Below are positions 9,941 through 28,452 of a stretch of DNA of 56,502 nt, piece by piece. The stretch comes from a virus. A model generated the notes under the pieces. That model did not search any database, was not told the origin of the DNA, and worked only from the letters and a program-made list of their open reading frames with translations. Numbering within the stretch: the stretch's first letter is position 1; each line of letters begins with the position of its first letter. The translations under genes and the position numbers were made by a program. The stretch lies in the IMG/VR virus record IMGVR_UViG_3300038701_002364, positions 1-56,502 of that record. One strand, written 5' to 3'.

Positions 9941-10584
9941 CACGATGCCTCCCGAATGAGCTTGAGGATGGTGTCTTTTTGGCGCTGGCGGGCGGCGTCA
10001 TAGGCGGCGGCACAGGCGGCAATATAGGCGGCATGGGCGGCATGGGCGGCACCGGCGGCAATGGCGGCATAGGCGGCGGCATCGGCGGCGGCATAGGCGG
10101 CACGGGCGGCGGCATCGGCGGCAATGGCGGCATAGGCGGCATAGGCGGCGGCATAGGCGGCATAGGCGTCCGGCCATTTCTCTCCAGCAGCAAGCAGGTC
10201 CATTCCGGCAATCACGTCGCTAATGGCGGTGCAGTCAGCACCCGGAATGTTGCGCAACTCACTGCCGAGAAACGCCCAGACAACCCGCGTCAGGTCTTTG
10301 CCATCGCAACCAACGGCATCACCAATCTGCGCAAAAAAGTCTTTAGCGTCATCTTCGGGGAGGCCTTCGAAAATGTTTTCGCAGACCTTCACCAGCATCA
10401 GCGGCAGGCCGTATTTTTCGCCCAAAATTCTTGCGTCTTCCGAGTGTGCAAGGCACCCGATAAAGCAGCCCCTGCCGCCGACGGCGTTTTTCGCGCCACG
10501 CCAGTAATCCCCCTGAACCACGGCATCTGCTGCGATGTGATGGGCTATCTCGGACTTGAGCAGATCGGTGTTTTTCGTGAGCAT
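9940..10584 (-). CDS. Phage protein with alanine-rich repeat tail, 214 aa
   Basis: The first about 135 residues are an ordinary folded domain with CFIGCLAHSED, a motif seen in a family of phage proteins that carry Ala-rich tails. Residues about 140-200 are a run of AYAA, AIAA, ADAA type units encoded by GGC-rich DNA at 9993-10165, predicted to form one long Ala-lined helix. Ends in RQRQKDTILKLIREAS. Copy number of the units probably varies by slippage. The opposite strand shows long but artificial Gly- and Pro-rich frames. Confidence 0.7.
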   Translation of the reverse strand: MLTKNTDLLKSEIAHHIAADAVVQGDYWRGAKNAVGGRGCFIGCLAHSEDARILGEKYGLPLMLVKVCENIFEGLPEDDAKDFFAQIGDAVGCDGKDLTRVVWAFLGSELRNIPGADCTAISDVIAGMDLLAAGEKWPDAYAAYAAAYAAYAAIAADAAARAAYAAADAAAYAAIAAGAAHAAHAAYIAACAAAYDAARQRQKDTILKLIREAS

Positions 10585-11228
10585 CACCGCGCCCCCTTGA
10601 TTGCGCTTTCAAGGGCTTTGCTTACAAAGGCACGCTCTTCGGCGATCTTCTTGCTGACAGTAGCTTTCACCTGCGCTGTGATCTCGGTGCGCAATTCCGT
10701 GAATGCCTGTTCAATCTCTCGCTTGAACATCTGGCGGAGCTCTTTTGCGATGATGTATTCTGCACGGGACTTATTGCGCGCCCTAAACCCACCAGAACTT
10801 GGCCTTCCTTCACTATCCACTGTTTCAGTCAGGTACGCGCGCCCTTCGATACCGATAGCTTGGGCAATCGAGACATTTTCAGCGCCGCGACGGTAGGCCG
10901 TTTGCTGCATCACCTCGCCAGCCACCTTGGACATCTCGGCGTTGACCTTCGCGCCAACCTGATCAAGTGCCGCCTCTTTAATCTCGCGCTGGACGTTCAT
11001 AGAGGACGTCAGTTGCCGTGCGGCAGCTTCGATCACCAATGCCTCAAAATCATAGAGCGTGTAGCTGTTCATCCTGACGTGGAAATCCATCGTCTTAGGC
11101 TTGGGCGCGGGTTCATCCTCAAGCGCCTCAAGGCTGGCAATCTCGGCCTCGTCATCGTCGATGCCGTGGTTGATCGCGATGTCTTCGCGGTCTGCCAGTG
11201 CAGGCTGTTGGGTCGGTGTGTTGGTCAT
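10584..11228 (-). CDS. Hypothetical phage early protein, 214 aa
   Basis: Start at 11228 (MTNTPTQQPAL), with GGAGAAAATC before it and an ATGA overlap. Acidic N-terminus (about 1-45), then a helical domain with DFHVRMNSYTLYDFEALVIEAAARQL. The C-terminal 80 residues are helical and charged. A nucleic-acid or replication-linked role is plausible from position only. Confidence 0.6.
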   Translation of the reverse strand: MTNTPTQQPALADREDIAINHGIDDDEAEIASLEALEDEPAPKPKTMDFHVRMNSYTLYDFEALVIEAAARQLTSSMNVQREIKEAALDQVGAKVNAEMSKVAGEVMQQTAYRRGAENVSIAQAIGIEGRAYLTETVDSEGRPSSGGFRARNKSRAEYIIAKELRQMFKREIEQAFTELRTEITAQVKATVSKKIAEERAFVSKALESAIKGAR

Positions 11229-11455
11229 GATTTTCTCCGGTACATTGATATTTTGTCGCCCCGGACGCGCTCTTTGATCAGTAGGCCTTCTCGGACCATC
11301 ATCGATAAGATGCGCGCGCAGGTTTTGCTGGTGGCGCCTGTTTTGATTGCGAGGTCGCTGGATGTGCGCCAACGACCGTCCGACATGATGTTCTCCAAGG
11401 CATTCCTGAGAGCGATGTTGCGAACCTGCTTGGCTTGATCAGCTATCGTCGTCAT
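11225..11455 (-). CDS. Winged-helix DNA-binding protein, 76 aa
   Basis: NALENIMSDGRWRTSSDLAI, then SKTCARILSMMVREGLLIKE reads as a MarR/winged-helix fold: helix-turn-helix plus wing (RVRGDKISMYRRKS). The 11574-11795 gene has a similar layout (IMSDGRERTWGDLDRAI), so the two look like paralogs. Confidence 0.65.
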   Translation of the reverse strand: MTTIADQAKQVRNIALRNALENIMSDGRWRTSSDLAIKTGATSKTCARILSMMVREGLLIKERVRGDKISMYRRKS

Positions 11456-11577
11456 CGCACGACCTCGCACCCGACAAAGGTCAGAAACAGTGAGCAAGCC
11501 AGCCACGCGATCTTGATCTCGATCCGGATGCCGGAAAACGCTTGCAGGTCATTCGGGGACTGGTCGTCTTCGCTCAT
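11452..11577 (-). CDS. Small membrane protein, 41 aa
   Basis: MSEDDQSPNDLQAFSGIRIE leads into one membrane span (IAWLACSLFLTFVGC). Overlaps both neighbours by ATGA. Of the same size and layout as other tiny membrane proteins in this operon. Confidence 0.5.
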   Translation of the reverse strand: MSEDDQSPNDLQAFSGIRIEIKIAWLACSLFLTFVGCEVVR

Positions 11578-11795
11578 GTCGTTTCTGTCGGGCATCGGTA
11601 TATTGCCTCATGTCCTTGGTATGTGCGGGACAGCGTTTTGGCCAAAAGCATTGATTTGATGGCACCTTTGATAAACGTCGTCTCACCTTCGATGGCTCGA
11701 TCCAGATCGCCCCAAGTGCGCTCGCGACCATCGCTCATGATGATCGCGATTTGCTTGGAGATGCGCTCAATCTCGAATGAGCGCTCAGCCGTCAT
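11574..11795 (-). CDS. Winged-helix-like protein, 73 aa
   Basis: Start at 11795 makes TAATG with the upstream stop. Contains IAIIMSDGRERTWGDLDRAI and then FIKGAIKSMLLAKTLSRTY, the same helix-turn-helix-wing pattern as the 11225 gene. It lies directly downstream of the IS110-domain gene and is probably co-translated with it. Confidence 0.6.
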   Translation of the reverse strand: MTAERSFEIERISKQIAIIMSDGRERTWGDLDRAIEGETTFIKGAIKSMLLAKTLSRTYQGHEAIYRCPTETT

Positions 11796-12757
11796 TACGG
11801 TCTGTTGATCGCGCGCCATTCGACTGTGAGGTCCTTTAAGAGGCACTTCGTCATGTAGCGGAGTGCCCGGTTGTGGGCGTGCAGGTCGGACATCGGTTTT
11901 TCCTCCGTGCCCTTGGCTTTCTCGAATGCCTTGCGCGCATCGTAGATCTGGCGATACGGGCCTGCATCCTCGTCCTTGCCTTGGCATTTCAGCAGAGCGT
12001 CAGCCATGTTCCAGAATGTGCTGCGGCGGGATGGGCTGTATCCATGCGCAATGGCCTTTTCGGCGTTTGAGCATTTGCGTTGTCGCTCGCCATCGATCAC
12101 AGCCAAGCCTGCGCGTTTCCAAACAGCGGCGACAGATTTGTAAGCGCTGAGATCGCCGCATTCAGCGACGACCTTTGCCAGCGCTAGGTGGCCGATGCCT
12201 TTGATCTGGTCGGACATGTGAGCGATTGGCAGCTGTGCGCCCAGTTTGGTCAGATGCCGCTCAAAGGCCGCGCGGTTTTTGACAAGGGGCTGCATGGCGT
12301 CGACGAGCGGCATGATTGCGAATCCGGCCGACGCGGCGAGAGGGTGATCCTTGCCTTTCGTCACAGCGGTATAGAGCTTGTCGGCTTCTTTGATCTCGCC
12401 CTCGCAGAAGCGACGGCAGATGGCCTTTGCCTGCAAGGTCAGCCGAGATTGCGCCCGGACCATGTCCCGACGCATGCGCCAGGTTTCAAGGATCTCGGCC
12501 ACAAGCGGGTCTGAAAAGCGGTGATCGACGAGAGCGAGGTTGGCATGGTTTCCGTCCTCTTTTTGGCCCTCGTCGATCACCTCCCCGGCGATCCACGTGT
12601 GGTCCTGCGTTGCTTCAATGGCCGGGGAAATTTCGTCGAGCGCAGCGCCGTTTCCATGGTCTTCGTGGGGGCTATGGCTGTCGCTCGACCTGGCCTTGTC
12701 GACTGTGGGCGTGTCCGCCTGTGGGAGGAATGGGCCAGTATCTAGGTTGTCTTTCAT
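11795..12757 (-). CDS. Stand-alone IS110-type transposase C-terminal domain protein, 320 aa
   Basis: Residues about 185-315 resemble the C-terminal domain of IS110-family transposases (Transposase_20): IKGIGHLALAKVVAECGDLSAYKS is the helix-hairpin-helix, followed by VWKRAGLAVI, a Ser-Arg-Arg segment (GYSPSRRSTFWNMADALLK), YRQIYDARKAFEKAK and AHNRALRYMTKCLLKDL. The N-terminal RuvC-like DEDD catalytic domain of IS110 is not visible; residues 1-90 are acidic and low-complexity, 90-180 helical. So it probably binds nucleic acid but does not recombine DNA by itself. RBS AAAGGAC at 12768-12762. The hairpin array ends about 20 nt upstream, so array and gene probably share a transcript. Related proteins occur in other phages without known function. 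Confidence 0.7.
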   Translation of the reverse strand: MKDNLDTGPFLPQADTPTVDKARSSDSHSPHEDHGNGAALDEISPAIEATQDHTWIAGEVIDEGQKEDGNHANLALVDHRFSDPLVAEILETWRMRRDMVRAQSRLTLQAKAICRRFCEGEIKEADKLYTAVTKGKDHPLAASAGFAIMPLVDAMQPLVKNRAAFERHLTKLGAQLPIAHMSDQIKGIGHLALAKVVAECGDLSAYKSVAAVWKRAGLAVIDGERQRKCSNAEKAIAHGYSPSRRSTFWNMADALLKCQGKDEDAGPYRQIYDARKAFEKAKGTEEKPMSDLHAHNRALRYMTKCLLKDLTVEWRAINRP

Positions 12758-12776
12758 GTCGCAGTCCTTTGGTTGT

Positions 12777-14093
12777 GCCGGGCGTGGCGTCCATGGGTTT
12801 GGGGTTGTTATTGGCCCGGCGGTTGCGCGCCTGCTCTTAGGTTCACGATTTATTCACGGCGCAAATTTCGTGCCGGCGGGGGAACGGGGAGCCTGGCGAG
12901 TGGCTCTCCCGACGCCGGCACAGGTGATCAGGGACTCTGGGGGGGTTGAGCGCCCCTGATCACCAAAACTGGGCGCGCGGCAAGCCGCTAATGGGTCAAT
13001 CTGGCTAGATGGCCGCGCGCTTCCGAGCGCTCGCCGATTGGTTTTCAGGCACCAGATGGCTCGGAAATTTGTCCCGCTGCGCGTTACTTTCGATGGGTCT
13101 CGGCGTGTTGATGAGCAGCGGGCGGTCAGCGGGCCGTCCGAGGTTTTCGTTCGATGAATGGCTGACCGTATCTTGTCCTGCGCGACGGGTTTACCTTGGG
13201 TATCGGTGGCGACCTGATCGCGCAGGTTCGGGCGTCTTTTGAATGGATGTCTCAATCCCGTTGGCCCGAAATTTCTGGTGCCCGCGTCCTTCCTTGGGTT
13301 GTCGCAGAGAAATTGGCGGGCACCGCCGGTGACGTGCTCTACATGGGAAACACTCGTGCCCCGGTCACCGGAATTGAGGCGCGCGCAGAGGTCAGGCTGT
13401 GGGTGCCGATATTCTATAGCTGCGCACGCCGCCTGAGCGAATTCCCCATGGGAGGCGGTTGTTTCCTGGCTCAGGCGAATTGATGGGGAGGGCGGGCTGG
13501 AAGTGGGTGTCAAAAGCCGCGTGGCCCTCCCCGCAGCTGCGCTAGCCCTATGGGTGACGAGGCCCTGTTGGCAGCTGAATTCTGTCCGAGTCTGCGTTTC
13601 GCGTATGGAGATCGAGCGTTCGGTGGCAGACTCGGGCGCCGCGATTTTCGATAGGGCGTCACATCCCCTCTGGCGGCGTGTTTGGTGTCCGGTGGCGCGA
13701 CGTGGTATTGGGTTACACAAGGTTTTCGGCGCCCCCGGACAGCTGGCAAAATTCGCTTGGTGATCAGCGGTCAAGTGGCCAGCGAAATTGATTGGGGTAG
13801 GCGTACCGAACATGGGTGTCTGACTTCTGTTGGCCCACCCCGCGACCGCAGCCGTGATATGGTGCTCGTATCTGATTTGGCGGTCGAATTGGTCCCGGAT
13901 CTGCGGGTGCATATTGGGTTTTGATTTTTCTATGGCAGATCCGGGTGTCGGTGCGGTCTTATGCTGAGCATAGCTTTTATGTTGGCACCAAAATTCTGTC
14001 CCGCCTGACGATCCGAAAGCGGGAAACGTCATGTTGCTGGTCAGGCGGGTGGTGGCGAAGGCAATGAGGTCTGCATCCATCAAGTGGCCACCA
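12777..14093 (-). repeat. Array of 26 hairpins with variable stems, mostly 30-nt loops
   Basis: Units (outer coordinates): 12777-12820, 12823-12864, 12870-12921, 12923-12964, 12973-13020, 13021-13066, 13073-13122, 13123-13168, 13177-13226, 13227-13270, 13277-13324, 13326-13371, 13378-13430, 13430-13477, 13485-13532, 13534-13577, 13586-13635, 13637-13678, 13687-13740, 13742-13783, 13794-13841, 13843-13886, 13894-13945, 13950-13989, 14000-14049, 14050-14093. Stems are 5-12 bp, differ in every unit and are perfect or have one mismatch. Loops are exactly 30 nt in 21 units; the others have 20, 31, 32, 34 and 34. In the 24 alignable loops (plus strand) position 12 is always G, positions 11-14 are mostly TGGG, the last base is always G (TG in 20) and the closing pair is C-G in nearly all. 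Spacers are 0-10 nt. Strand is inferred from the surrounding minus operon. Confidence 0.9.
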
Positions 14094-14110
14094 AACTGTT
14101 CGGGAGGCAT
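12854..14110 (-). CDS. Uninterrupted frame through the hairpin array, 418 codons
   Basis: Starts at an ATG that forms TGATG with the stop of the 14110-14622 gene, the same coupling used elsewhere in this operon, and stays open through 25 hairpins to a stop inside unit 2. The translation (rich in Arg, Thr, Ser, Pro) has no hydrophobic-core pattern or known domain. Two readings: the frame is kept open so that ribosomes shield the RNA from Rho, or a real, repeat-derived protein is made. Absence of stops over 1.25 kb is unlikely by chance at this G+C, but array composition may bias it. Confidence 0.3.
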   Translation of the reverse strand: MPPEQFGGHLMDADLIAFATTRLTSNMTFPAFGSSGGTEFWCQHKSYAQHKTAPTPGSAIEKSKPNMHPQIRDQFDRQIRYEHHITAAVAGWANRSQTPMFGTPTPINFAGHLTADHQANFASCPGAPKTLCNPIPRRATGHQTRRQRGCDALSKIAAPESATERSISIRETQTRTEFSCQQGLVTHRASAAAGRATRLLTPTSSPPSPSIRLSQETTASHGEFAQAACAAIEYRHPQPDLCARLNSGDRGTSVSHVEHVTGGARQFLCDNPRKDAGTRNFGPTGLRHPFKRRPNLRDQVATDTQGKPVAQDKIRSAIHRTKTSDGPLTARCSSTRRDPSKVTRSGTNFRAIWCLKTNRRALGSARPSSQIDPLAACRAPSFGDQGRSTPPESLITCAGVGRATRQAPRSPAGTKFAP

Positions 14111-14622
14111 CACACGTCCCCCTTCAAGCGCTGCAAGTCGGTCTCGCCATAGGCCTCGGAAACACGCACGCCGGGGTTCATCCCATCTGCGATGCGGTTC
14201 AACCAAGTGCCCTTGGCGACGGCGTCCCTGCCGCGTTCGAGATAGTAGATTGCGCCTTGGGCGACCTCTTCGGCTGTCGCGAGGTGCAGAGGCTTTCCGC
14301 CTGGCAGGGGGAAATCCATCAAGGCTGTCGAGTTTGCGCGCGCCAGCATCTGGACACGGGCGTCTGGCTGCTTGGGGCGCACGAAGTCGCCCCGTGTTCG
14401 GGTCCAGACGTCTTTGCGGTTTTTGGCGATGGCGGCGCTGATCATGCGGCGCGCGGCGTCCAACTCGTATTGTCCGAGCAATGCCTGATAGAGATCACGG
14501 TCACCCCGTGCTCGATCCAACAGGAAATTCGCGGCGCTGGTGATGTCACCGGGATAAGATGACAGCGCGTCATTGACCAAGTCAGAGAGGTTCGCCGCGC
14601 TGATTTTCTTGTGTGCGTTCAT
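14110..14622 (-). CDS. Hypothetical phage early protein, 170 aa
   Basis: Helical protein (MNAHKKISAANLSDLVNDAL...). Residues about 45-85 carry LLGQYELDAARRMISAAIAKNRKDVW; the C-terminal half has AIYYLERGRDAVAKGTWLNRIADGM. Similar early proteins occur in many alphaproteobacterial phages, function unknown. GGAGACC lies before the start. It is the promoter-proximal gene of the transcript that continues into the hairpin array. Confidence 0.65.
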   Translation of the reverse strand: MNAHKKISAANLSDLVNDALSSYPGDITSAANFLLDRARGDRDLYQALLGQYELDAARRMISAAIAKNRKDVWTRTRGDFVRPKQPDARVQMLARANSTALMDFPLPGGKPLHLATAEEVAQGAIYYLERGRDAVAKGTWLNRIADGMNPGVRVSEAYGETDLQRLKGDV

Positions 14623-14646
14623 CGGTGGTCTCCGGTGTGTGGATAG

Positions 14647-14659
14647 TCGCGATAAGCGA
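14647..14659. promoter_or_regulatory. Operator palindrome upstream of the array operon
   Basis: TCGCGATAAGCGA, a perfect TCGC-N5-GCGA site, 25 nt upstream of the 14622 start. On the minus strand TTGCAC lies 7 nt before it and CTATCC follows, giving a weak candidate promoter. The array operon may therefore have its own repressible promoter. The rest of 14660-14823 holds nothing else I can support. Confidence 0.6.
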
Positions 14660-14823
14660 TAACGGTGTGCAAATTTTTTTGGTGAACTCCGTCAATCTTG
14701 CCCAAGGGTCGACGGAGCTATGGGACAACAATAAGGTCGCGTCCTTTTTCTTGACGATGCTGAACGGGAGGGTCAGTCCGCTAACACCGGGGCGTTGAGA
14801 TGTGACCCGAAATCAGCCGCCTA

Positions 14824-16020
14824 TCACCAAGCTACGGTGACATGCGGGATCTGACCGTCGATCAGAGCCTGCGGAATGTCCGCCTTTTTGATCTTCGAAA
14901 TTGCGGCCGAGATTTCTGACAGCGCCGCCTGGCGTTTATCGTCCTCGGTTGGCTCTGCCGGGGTGCTGTCAATATCGCTATTTGCGTTGTCATCAGGCAC
15001 AGAAACATCGGGCTTTGCCGTTGGCTGGGGCAGGGCGGCTTTGACCCTGTCAACGACACCGGTGAACACCGCGTGCGTCTGGTCGTAGTGATCGCCCAGC
15101 TCGTTCTTGGAGATCTCGATGCTGCGCAGCGCATCCATGGCGTTCTGCGCTGTGATGCTCTCGGTGATGACGTCACGCTCGAGATCCTTGATCGTCGAGA
15201 TGATCATGATCGCGTGCGTCTTGCGCTGGTTCTCACGCGCCGCACGATCCATTTCCGCCTTGTGCGCGGCCCGCTCGGCCTCGGCCTTGGCTTCCGCCTC
15301 GGCACGTTCCGCCTCGGCCTTGGCTTCGGCTTCCTTGCGCTGCTTTTCGGCTTCGGCCAGTTCTGCCTCGGCCTTGGCGCGCGCAGCCCGCTCACGCTCC
15401 ATGTCCTCGGCCTGACGGACGCGCAGTTCCGCGTTCTCAAGCGTGACCTCGAGCCGATCCTTGGCCCGGGTCCGGGCATCGGCTGCTTTGACCTCGTATT
15501 CCTGCAGCGCCTCGTCAATCTGGATCTCGGCCAGGCGGTCCAGCTTGGCCCGGATGTCCGCAGGATCATCCCGCCAGTTTGCGTCGAGCGCGTCGATCTC
15601 GTCGACAACAGCCTGATGTTTCGCCTTCCGCTCGGCCTCTTGTTCTTCCCAGAGTGTCAGAGGTGCGCGGACGTCATCACGGATCGCGTCCATGCTGTCC
15701 CGCATGGTTTTGCGTTCGGCGTCCACAGCCTTGATCGCGGTCCGCATGTCCTCGGTCATGTCTTTGCCGTAGTCATCAAGGAACGTCTTCGTGCGGCTGA
15801 CCTTGTAGGCAAGAGACTTGACCCGGTCGCGGCCCTTTGTGGTCGTCATATCCGGCGCTTCTGACATGACGTCTTTCCGGATCGCATCCACAATTGCAGG
15901 GAGCGTCTTGTTCTCGTAGGCCTCGGCGATATTGATCGGGCAGTCTTCCGACTGGATCATGTCGAGCGTCACAATCACCTCTTCGGCGTCTGTGACGGCA
16001 ATGGCTGTTTCGTCGTTCAT
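14824..16020 (-). CDS. Coiled-coil phage protein, 398 aa
   Basis: Residues about 35-150 are helical with KVSRTKTFLDDYGKDM, typical of a phage family near recT. Residues about 185-270 form a long Ala/Glu/Lys coiled coil (AEAELAEAEKQRKEAEAKAE and repeats). The C-terminal end (SEISAAISKIKKADIPQALIDG) looks folded. Its place beside recT and recE-like genes suggests a recombination accessory function. ATGA overlap with the upstream gene. Confidence 0.65.
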   Translation of the reverse strand: MNDETAIAVTDAEEVIVTLDMIQSEDCPINIAEAYENKTLPAIVDAIRKDVMSEAPDMTTTKGRDRVKSLAYKVSRTKTFLDDYGKDMTEDMRTAIKAVDAERKTMRDSMDAIRDDVRAPLTLWEEQEAERKAKHQAVVDEIDALDANWRDDPADIRAKLDRLAEIQIDEALQEYEVKAADARTRAKDRLEVTLENAELRVRQAEDMERERAARAKAEAELAEAEKQRKEAEAKAEAERAEAEAKAEAERAAHKAEMDRAARENQRKTHAIMIISTIKDLERDVITESITAQNAMDALRSIEISKNELGDHYDQTHAVFTGVVDRVKAALPQPTAKPDVSVPDDNANSDIDSTPAEPTEDDKRQAALSEISAAISKIKKADIPQALIDGQIPHVTVAW

Positions 16021-26838: not shown

Positions 26839-28452
26839 TCATATTCCCCATTCAAACAGATCGCCGGCCATCGGCTTGGCCAAGTCGCGGGTCATGTAGG
26901 CGCGGACAAAGCCCGTCGCTTGCGCAAGGTCGAGGCCGTTTCCGTAGGCGCGCAGGCGTCCCAGACGGCTGGGAGCCGTTGAAGCCAACGGGAAAGTGCT
27001 GGGTTCAACTGGCCGCCAGACTCCATCCCGGCACCAGAGCCAGTCAGCATCGCGCCAGTAGCCGTCAATCGGATCGGCGATGACATCTGCGAACAGATCG
27101 CTTGTGCTGATTGCAGCGTCGGGCGCTGCCGTGTCCCGCCGTGGCCCGTGCCTCTGTTCTGGCTCATGTTCGGGGCTTCGGTTGCCATCGGCGTTGGCCA
27201 GCCGGTCAGTTGTGACGCTGACCCGATCGTCAGGCCCGCGCCATTGCTGTTGCCGTGTTTGTGTTTCAGTTTTTCCCGGCGCGCTTGCGTTGTCTCCGCG
27301 CTGGACGTCACGTTGAATGCTCCCGCGTCCGGTGTCGGCCAGCCGCTCACTGCGTCCACCACTTTGCGGCTGTAATCCGAGTTCCCCGCCGCGTTGTTGC
27401 CGTTCTGCGCCGGTGTCCCGGCCATCGGTGTCGGCCAGCCGGTCAGCTGTGCGTTTGTCACAAGACTCGGGCCGCCCGCGCCCCTTGTCTTTGATGTGTA
27501 GTCCGCGCCCGCTGTCGCTTCCGCTGTTTTCGGCGTCGGCCAGCCGGTCATGTGCGCAGCCTGTATCAGATCCTGTGGCTGACCCTTGCGTGCGATTTCC
27601 CTCACCGATCCGGCGTGCGTCCTGACGTTCTTTTCCGCGTCCCCCGCCCGCGCTGTCGGCCAGCCCGCCATAGCAGCATCTGCATTCAGGTCCGCACACC
27701 CGTGTTTTGTCCCGTGCTTGGCCTTCTGACCTTTTCCCCTCGGGGACGTATCGTGCGCCATGGGGGTTGTCCAACCCGCAAGCTGCGCTTGCCTCGGCAA
27801 TTGATCGGTGCGGTCGCGCGTCGAGCCATCCGGGTTCTGACCTGTCAGCGACATGCCCGCAGTGTCTTTCCAGTCCCGCGCCGAGGCTGTTGACCAGCCC
27901 GCCATATCGCCGGGCAGTGTCTGCCCACGCCTCACGTTTGGCAGATTTGTTATCCTCGGCCGCGAAATAGAGCCTTTGCCGGATGTGGAATGACCGGAAG
28001 CCCGCAGCGCAGGTATCTGCAAGCCCGAGGGCGTAGTCCGTCGCTTCCAAGTCAGACGATACAAGGTCGGCCCAGACCAGTCCGTCAGCGCTTGCAACCT
28101 GCTCTCCAAAGACAGTTTCAGGGCGACACTGTTCGATGAGCCAGTGCCAGTGGGGCCACAAGTGCCGCTCATCATCAAACCCAGCGCTTTGGCCTGCCGC
28201 GCTGAAAGGTTGACAGGGACATGACCCGGTCCAGACCGGCCTGTCATCAGGCCATCCAGCCGCGCGCAAAGCCGCCGACCAAATCCCGATACCGGCAAAA
28301 AAGTGGCATTGTGTAAAGCCGTCGAGGTCTGCGGGCGCCACGTCTGAAATCGAGCGTTCATCAACAATGCCGGGGGCGATGGCACCGCAGGCAATGAGGT
28401 TTCGCAGCCATTCGGCAGCATAGGGATCATATTCATTGTAATACGCTTTCAT
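26839..28452 (-). CDS. C5-cytosine DNA methyltransferase, 537 aa
   Basis: Motif [20 protein letters not shown], motif [14 protein letters not shown] with catalytic Cys, motif VI FGEQV, motif VIII-like HIRQRLYF, and the family's C-terminal block FWRDADW-like ([31 protein letters not shown], the last being motif X). Residues about 170-430 are a low-complexity insertion with repeated RLADA/RLADT units. Methylates cytosine in phage DNA. The same DNA is open in a second frame for almost its full length. Confidence 0.85.
26892..28436 (-). CDS. Second long frame inside the methylase gene, 514 codons
   Basis: Starts 16 nt inside the methylase gene in another frame and stays open to 26892. Its translation has GWPTP repeats (LTGWPTPMA and variants, at least six), and blocks such as [16 protein letters not shown]-like and [10 protein letters not shown]...[10 protein letters not shown] that I recognise from phage and prophage proteins elsewhere. 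The repeated DNA unit reads DRLADA in the methylase frame and TGWPTP here. Either a genuine overlapping gene or a long-lived shadow of repeat DNA. Confidence 0.45.

Follow-up and report, generated by a model that had tools for sequence, protein, structure and literature searches.

A phage array of hairpins with private stems that almost certainly belongs to the stem-loop TIGR class

The window analysed here, the whole 56,502-nucleotide (nt) stretch at positions 1 to 56,502 of the IMG/VR record IMGVR_UViG_3300038701_002364, contains at positions 12777-14093 a tandem array of hairpins in which the geometry recurs and the stem sequences do not. This locus raises the question of what kind of element keeps the shape of its repeats in this way. 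A sequence-only reading of the same DNA had regarded it as a new kind of array, possibly of structured RNA, in which two variable segments that look like guides flank a fixed core. The guide idea stood and the novelty of the kind did not: the array is almost certainly a TIGR array of the stem-loop class with a TasA effector, and in anatomy, strand and neighbouring Nop-domain gene it matches that class as defined by Faure et al. 2025 (main text of PMC12045711).

An exact scan of 12777-14093 detected 19 perfect stems, 6 bp or longer, that close a loop of exactly 30 nt, compared with a mean of 0.40 (sd 0.62, maximum 4) in 1000 dinucleotide shuffles, and nothing comparable was detected in the rest of the window. 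A tolerant parse resolved the array into 26 consecutive back-to-back units, 22 of which have a 30-nt loop. The stems are private to their units. Within a unit, 5.85 of the six inner pairs are formed; when arms from separate units are matched, the figure is 2.51. Over the outermost four bases of the 5' arms, identity between units is only 0.30, and the stem sequences are not conserved. The exact scan, the equal-dinucleotide shuffles that the sequence-only reading had named as a possible refutation, and the comparison of pairing within and between units all bear out its description of 26 hairpins with private stems and 30-nt loops, with the count of such loops raised from 21 to 22. The Rfam scan returned tRNAs and no other match, and PADLOC gave no match.

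The unit on the minus strand reads stem-C/CA-N9-YG-N4-CCA-N9-Y/G-stem, where the slashes mark the ends of the loop. In the 22 aligned loops, CA at positions 1-2 follows an invariant stem C and precedes nine variable bases; YG at 12-13, four bases, CC and usually A at 18-20, a further nine variable bases and Y at 30 come next, followed by an invariant stem G. In TIGR RNAs, CCA is named box C and UG is named box D, and in the stem-loop class two spacers of 8-12 nt lie between the boxes, with variable palindromes in place of the edge repeats (main text of PMC12045711). The order here is box C, spacer A, box D', four bases, box C', spacer B and box D on a stem, with CCA as box C, YG as box D and two 9-nt spacers; the shuffle and cross-pairing tests place variable palindromic stems where edge repeats would be. 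The conserved loop core and final G noted earlier are real. The segments of 10 and about 14 nt that had been taken for guides are corrected to 9 nt each, and the minus-strand pattern, which had been given as one way of reading the loop, is the strand on which it must be read (CCA, YG, CCA, YG).

The next gene downstream of the array, on the same strand, encodes a solo Nop-domain protein of 320 aa, with a Shine-Dalgarno-like AAAGGA 7 nt upstream of its ATG. In phmmer searches the protein matched PDB 9mty (TIGR-TasR by entry title) with an E-value of 8e-12 and TasH with 6e-4, and its match to Pfam Transposase_20 was above the cut-off. In the AlphaFold model, residues 1-71 are disordered and residues 79-320 are confidently folded. 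The best Foldseek matches were TasR (1.8e-6) and TasH (4.4e-5), followed by IS621, Prp31 and Nop5 with weak E-values. No RuvC or HNH nuclease domain was matched in the protein, whose N-terminal residues 1-71 are disordered, and no DEDD catalytic domain was found, the Nop coiled coil being the first folded element, from residue 79 on. Because it has no nuclease domain, we designated the protein TasA. The array extends beyond position 12777 into its gene. The features are as follows, in minus-strand order.

14110-14622, minus: P0002, conserved helical partner protein; stop codon 16 nt before unit 1
12777-14093, minus: whole TIGR stem-loop array, 26 units in 13 pairs, presumably co-transcribed with tasA
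14050-14093, minus: unit 1 (first of pair 1), spacer A CTTGATGGA, spacer B CATTGCCTT
14000-14049, minus: unit 2, A GCAACATGA, B CTTTCGGAT
13948-13991, minus: unit 3, tolerant parse
13894-13945, minus: unit 4, A TAGAAAAAT, B ATATGCACC
13843-13886, minus: unit 5, A AATCAGATA, B TATCACGGC
13794-13841, minus: unit 6, A ACAGAAGTC, B TGTTCGGTA
13742-13783, minus: unit 7, A CTTGACCGC, B AGCGAATTT
13686-13741, minus: unit 8, tolerant parse
13637-13678, minus: unit 9, tolerant parse
13586-13635, minus: unit 10, A CCGAACGCT, B TACGCGAAA
13534-13577, minus: unit 11, tolerant parse
13485-13532, minus: unit 12, A CGCGGCTTT, B CTTCCAGCC
13429-13478, minus: unit 13, A GGAAACAAC, B TGGGGAATT
13378-13430, minus: unit 14, 31-nt loop
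13326-13371, minus: unit 15, tolerant parse
13277-13324, minus: unit 16, tolerant parse
13227-13270, minus: unit 17, tolerant parse
13177-13226, minus: unit 18, 32-nt loop
13123-13168, minus: unit 19, A TTCATCGAA, B CGGACGGCC
13073-13122, minus: unit 20, 34-nt loop on a perfect 8-bp stem, or 30-nt loop with one mismatch
13020-13067, minus: unit 21, A TCTGGTGCC, B ATCGGCGAG
12973-13020, minus: unit 22, A TCTAGCCAG, B TTAGCGGCT
12923-12964, minus: unit 23, degenerate boxes
12869-12922, minus: unit 24, degenerate boxes
12823-12864, minus: unit 25, tolerant parse
12777-12820, minus: unit 26, A ATAACAACC, B TGGACGCCA
12643-12680, minus: possible unit 27 within the tasA coding sequence, weak, 4-bp stem only
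12579-12631, minus: unit 28 within the tasA coding sequence, 31-nt loop
12515-12586, minus: unit 29 within the tasA coding sequence, 21-position stem, its 3' arm coding for the first residues of the folded domain
11795-12757, minus: tasA, solo Nop-domain protein, 320 aa

TasA relatives are encoded in six annotated phages and 51 viral contigs, including Rhizobium phage RHph_X2_25, Gordonia phage Morrissey and Mycobacterium phage Rich, and a search of genome collections added Rhizobium esperanzae, Metarhizobium album, Shinella sumterensis and three metagenome-assembled genomes. The relatives in viral contigs and genome collections came from alignment-based searches; single-protein searches of viral and genome contigs gave no match. 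Among 47 tas loci of phages and viral contigs, near-copies left out, 41 carry hairpin units on the tas strand with loops of nearly always 30 nt, and the pattern CA-N9-YG-N4-CCA-N9-Y is common to all 41. The pairing is thus retained in relatives; its loss there had been named as grounds for abandoning the hairpin description.

The array resembles the published TIGR-TasA stem-loop arrays in its solo Nop protein, variable palindromic stems, tandem units, a pair of 8-12 nt spacers flanked by boxes C and D, and carriage by a phage. It differs from what the main text of PMC12045711 describes in having at least 26 units, compared with 13 in the published example, 30-nt loops with a fixed 9-4-9 layout, units arranged in pairs, a second gene that is conserved, and units within the tas coding sequence. 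With the dual-repeat arrays of TasR and TasH it shares the CCA and YG boxes, 9-nt spacers and a homologous Nop domain, whereas it has no conserved alternating edge and loop repeats (8-12 nt), has stems in place of edge repeats, has a variable 4-nt segment between box D' and box C', and lacks a RuvC or HNH domain in its effector. Box C/D snoRNAs likewise have two guides between C and D boxes, a closing stem and a Nop fold; here, in contrast, the boxes are CCA and YG, and no K-turn motif, fibrillarin or L7Ae was identified. Unlike a CRISPR array, the locus has no identical repeats of 25-36 nt, and its conserved boxes are only 2-3 nt long. The earlier exclusion of CRISPR, REP and attC elements was correct, and the anatomy fits TIGR instead. 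A stem-loop TIGR array with TasA in a temperate tailed phage is very probably the best explanation of the locus.

Transcription, processing, DNA binding and outcome are drawn from the published systems. A minus-strand transcript would run from P0002 through the array into tasA and would be cut in the linkers to give hairpin units, each of which may be gripped by a TasA dimer at two pairs of box C and box D. The 9-nt spacers A and B would anneal to the two strands of a single DNA target; its top strand is expected to consist of A, a gap of 0-2 nt and the reverse complement of B, a geometry derived from the cleavage rule in the main text of PMC12045711. The complex would then block, bend or mark the DNA rather than cut it. 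This outcome appears the most likely because TasA has no nuclease, and RNA-guided DNA binding without cutting is, on balance, the probable mode of action.

Several observations weigh against this explanation. Neither this phage, nor 0.74 Mb of relatives, nor the complete Morrissey genome contained more sites with A and the reverse complement of B than mispaired control spacers gave; the boxes of units 12923-12964 and 12869-12922 are degenerate; and a simple scan of 10400-14900 detected no sigma-70-like promoter. When two mismatches were allowed, a slight excess was seen in relatives (72 matches, compared with about 48 in controls), which was discounted because it was equal in the wrong orientation. 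An exact scan of viral contigs for the target geometry of three units gave one to three unrelated contigs each. The GC contents of these contigs range between 0.32 and 0.66, and none of them matched a second unit within one mismatch. The matches were judged to be due to chance rather than targets.

The failure to find DNA targets in this phage and its relatives would also suit hairpin ribonucleoproteins that act on RNA, in a snoRNA-like or antisense manner, and regulate host or rival-phage transcripts; the fold that TasA shares with Nop5 and Prp31, with weak E-values, points the same way. However, the two solved Tas relatives are DNA-guided, TasR is inactive on RNA (main text of PMC12045711), and the nearest matches of TasA in both sequence and fold are TasR and TasH, which makes action on RNA improbable. 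The Transposase_20 match and the presence of IS621 among the fold matches could indicate a remnant IS110-type element with a bridge RNA, and IS110 recombinases and their bridge RNAs do share with this locus a Nop-like RNA-binding domain and two-guide loops on stems. Such an origin has virtually no chance of being correct: TasA has the Nop coiled coil from residue 79 and no DEDD domain, there is no transposon, IS110 carries one bridge RNA rather than an array of 26 units, and the array geometry is common to relatives. The strong palindromes would be expected of DNA hairpins, either attC-like single-stranded DNA recombination sites or packaging signals, and the sequence-only reading had offered single-stranded DNA hairpins as an alternative. 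This alternative found no support and is exceedingly implausible, because in array loci the boxes obey the RNA rule on the tas strand only and the stem sequences are not conserved. An ordinary coding region, suggested by the near absence of stop codons from the array in the tasA frame, was rejected because pairing and boxes explain the array; the depletion of stops is kept as a separate observation.

The gene upstream of the array, P0002, is conserved as well. An iterated hidden Markov model detected the P0002 family in 40 of the 41 tas loci with stem arrays and in none of the six without arrays; the exception, L052, has an open reading frame at the same place that falls below detection. The family and arrays also occurred together in all six bacterial genome loci outside the model-building set. 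The homologue lies upstream of tas in all cases but one, with its stop codon often 5-20 nt ahead of the array. The actinophage members tested belong to PHROG 4604, of unknown function. The predicted fold of P0002 is all-helical, and Foldseek gave no match in PDB and BFVD at E<=0.001. Such a second gene is absent from the main text of PMC12045711, and the partner is likely new.

The 26 hairpins form 13 pairs, with linkers alternating between 0-2 and 4-10 nt. The unit spacing alternates without exception across 25 gaps (44-50 then 52-57 nt; two-sided p 3.8e-7), and the first hairpins of pairs have shorter stems than the second (7.4 and 9.8 bp; Wilcoxon p 0.0005). The long linkers are mostly A/U-rich and the short ones leave almost no room for cutting. 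The alternation was also seen in L008, the nearest relative with a long array (51% TasA identity), and not in the other arrays, where linkers are either even, at 4-8 nt, or longer. The main text of PMC12045711 describes no such pairs; they may yield two-hairpin RNAs on processing or may be left over from an expansion two units at a time. Complete alternation of spacing, alternating stem lengths, long linkers that are mostly A/U-rich, short ones with almost no room for a cut, and the same layout in L008 would accord with two-headed guides that join two DNA sites, like an IS110 bridge RNA; given that the layout is confined to these two arrays among those examined and that pairwise expansion could account for it, this is rather unlikely. 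Less likely still is the fuller proposal that stem-loop TIGR systems are two-protein systems of P0002 family and TasA, and that the two-hairpin guides of this lineage load two TasA dimers per RNA and tether two DNA sites.

Other stem and linker features were observed in relatives. In L011 (4186-4790) the stems alternate strictly between two conserved types (GGGCGCGC, TCCCGGCGGC), and elsewhere they are private. Small hairpins such as CCCCGNAAGGGG occur in the inter-unit linkers of L014 (5370-5994), L015 (5660-5983) and L008 (1168-1186), and are possibly processing signals.

Units 12579-12631 and 12515-12586 lie in tasA, including its disordered N-terminus, and the 3' arm of the latter codes for residues 75-81, on the border of the folded, conserved domain. 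A unit at the position matching 12515-12586 is also present in L008 and L009, and entire arrays lie in the open tas frame in L008, L011, L014, L030, L053 and L055. Units were also seen in the body of the tas frame, beyond its 5' end, in L054 (5323-5439), L056 (6263-6379) and L041 (6594-6705). In 265 upstream units, 47 stops were counted in the tas frame compared with 85 and 112 in the other frames, a bias that is strongest close to the gene and absent from downstream units (18, 13 and 11). The array of the window has one stop in the tasA frame compared with 15 and 17 in the others (in shuffles, P = 0.002 for a frame with no more than one stop), and we infer that it is translated. The main text of PMC12045711 makes no mention of units inside the tas coding sequence. 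Region 12854-14206 on the minus strand is almost stop-free in the tasA frame, its sole stop, 12854-12856, dividing the array from tasA. The first seven pair-to-pair steps of the array are multiples of 3 nt.

The window is that of a temperate tailed phage, with genes for an integrase, DnaB, terminase, portal and head proteins, RecT and an exonuclease, and a tRNA-Arg close to the integrase. At 26839-28452, two long overlapping minus-strand open reading frames of 537 and 514 aa lie in different frames; the 514-aa frame is a DNA methyltransferase by PHROGs.

The system is thus of a known kind, extended at this locus by the partner gene, guides in coding sequence and the paired layout. The partner gene, which tracks stem-loop arrays, is a concrete candidate for study, and members of its family are found in Gordonia and Mycobacterium phages that were isolated on laboratory hosts and are open to experiment. 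If the two-hairpin guides do tether two DNA sites, they would correspond to the IS110 bridge RNA in a system that does not cut. A single RNA could act as message or as guides, and the guides within the tasA frame suggest that guide processing and TasA synthesis may compete for one RNA, which would provide a built-in feedback.
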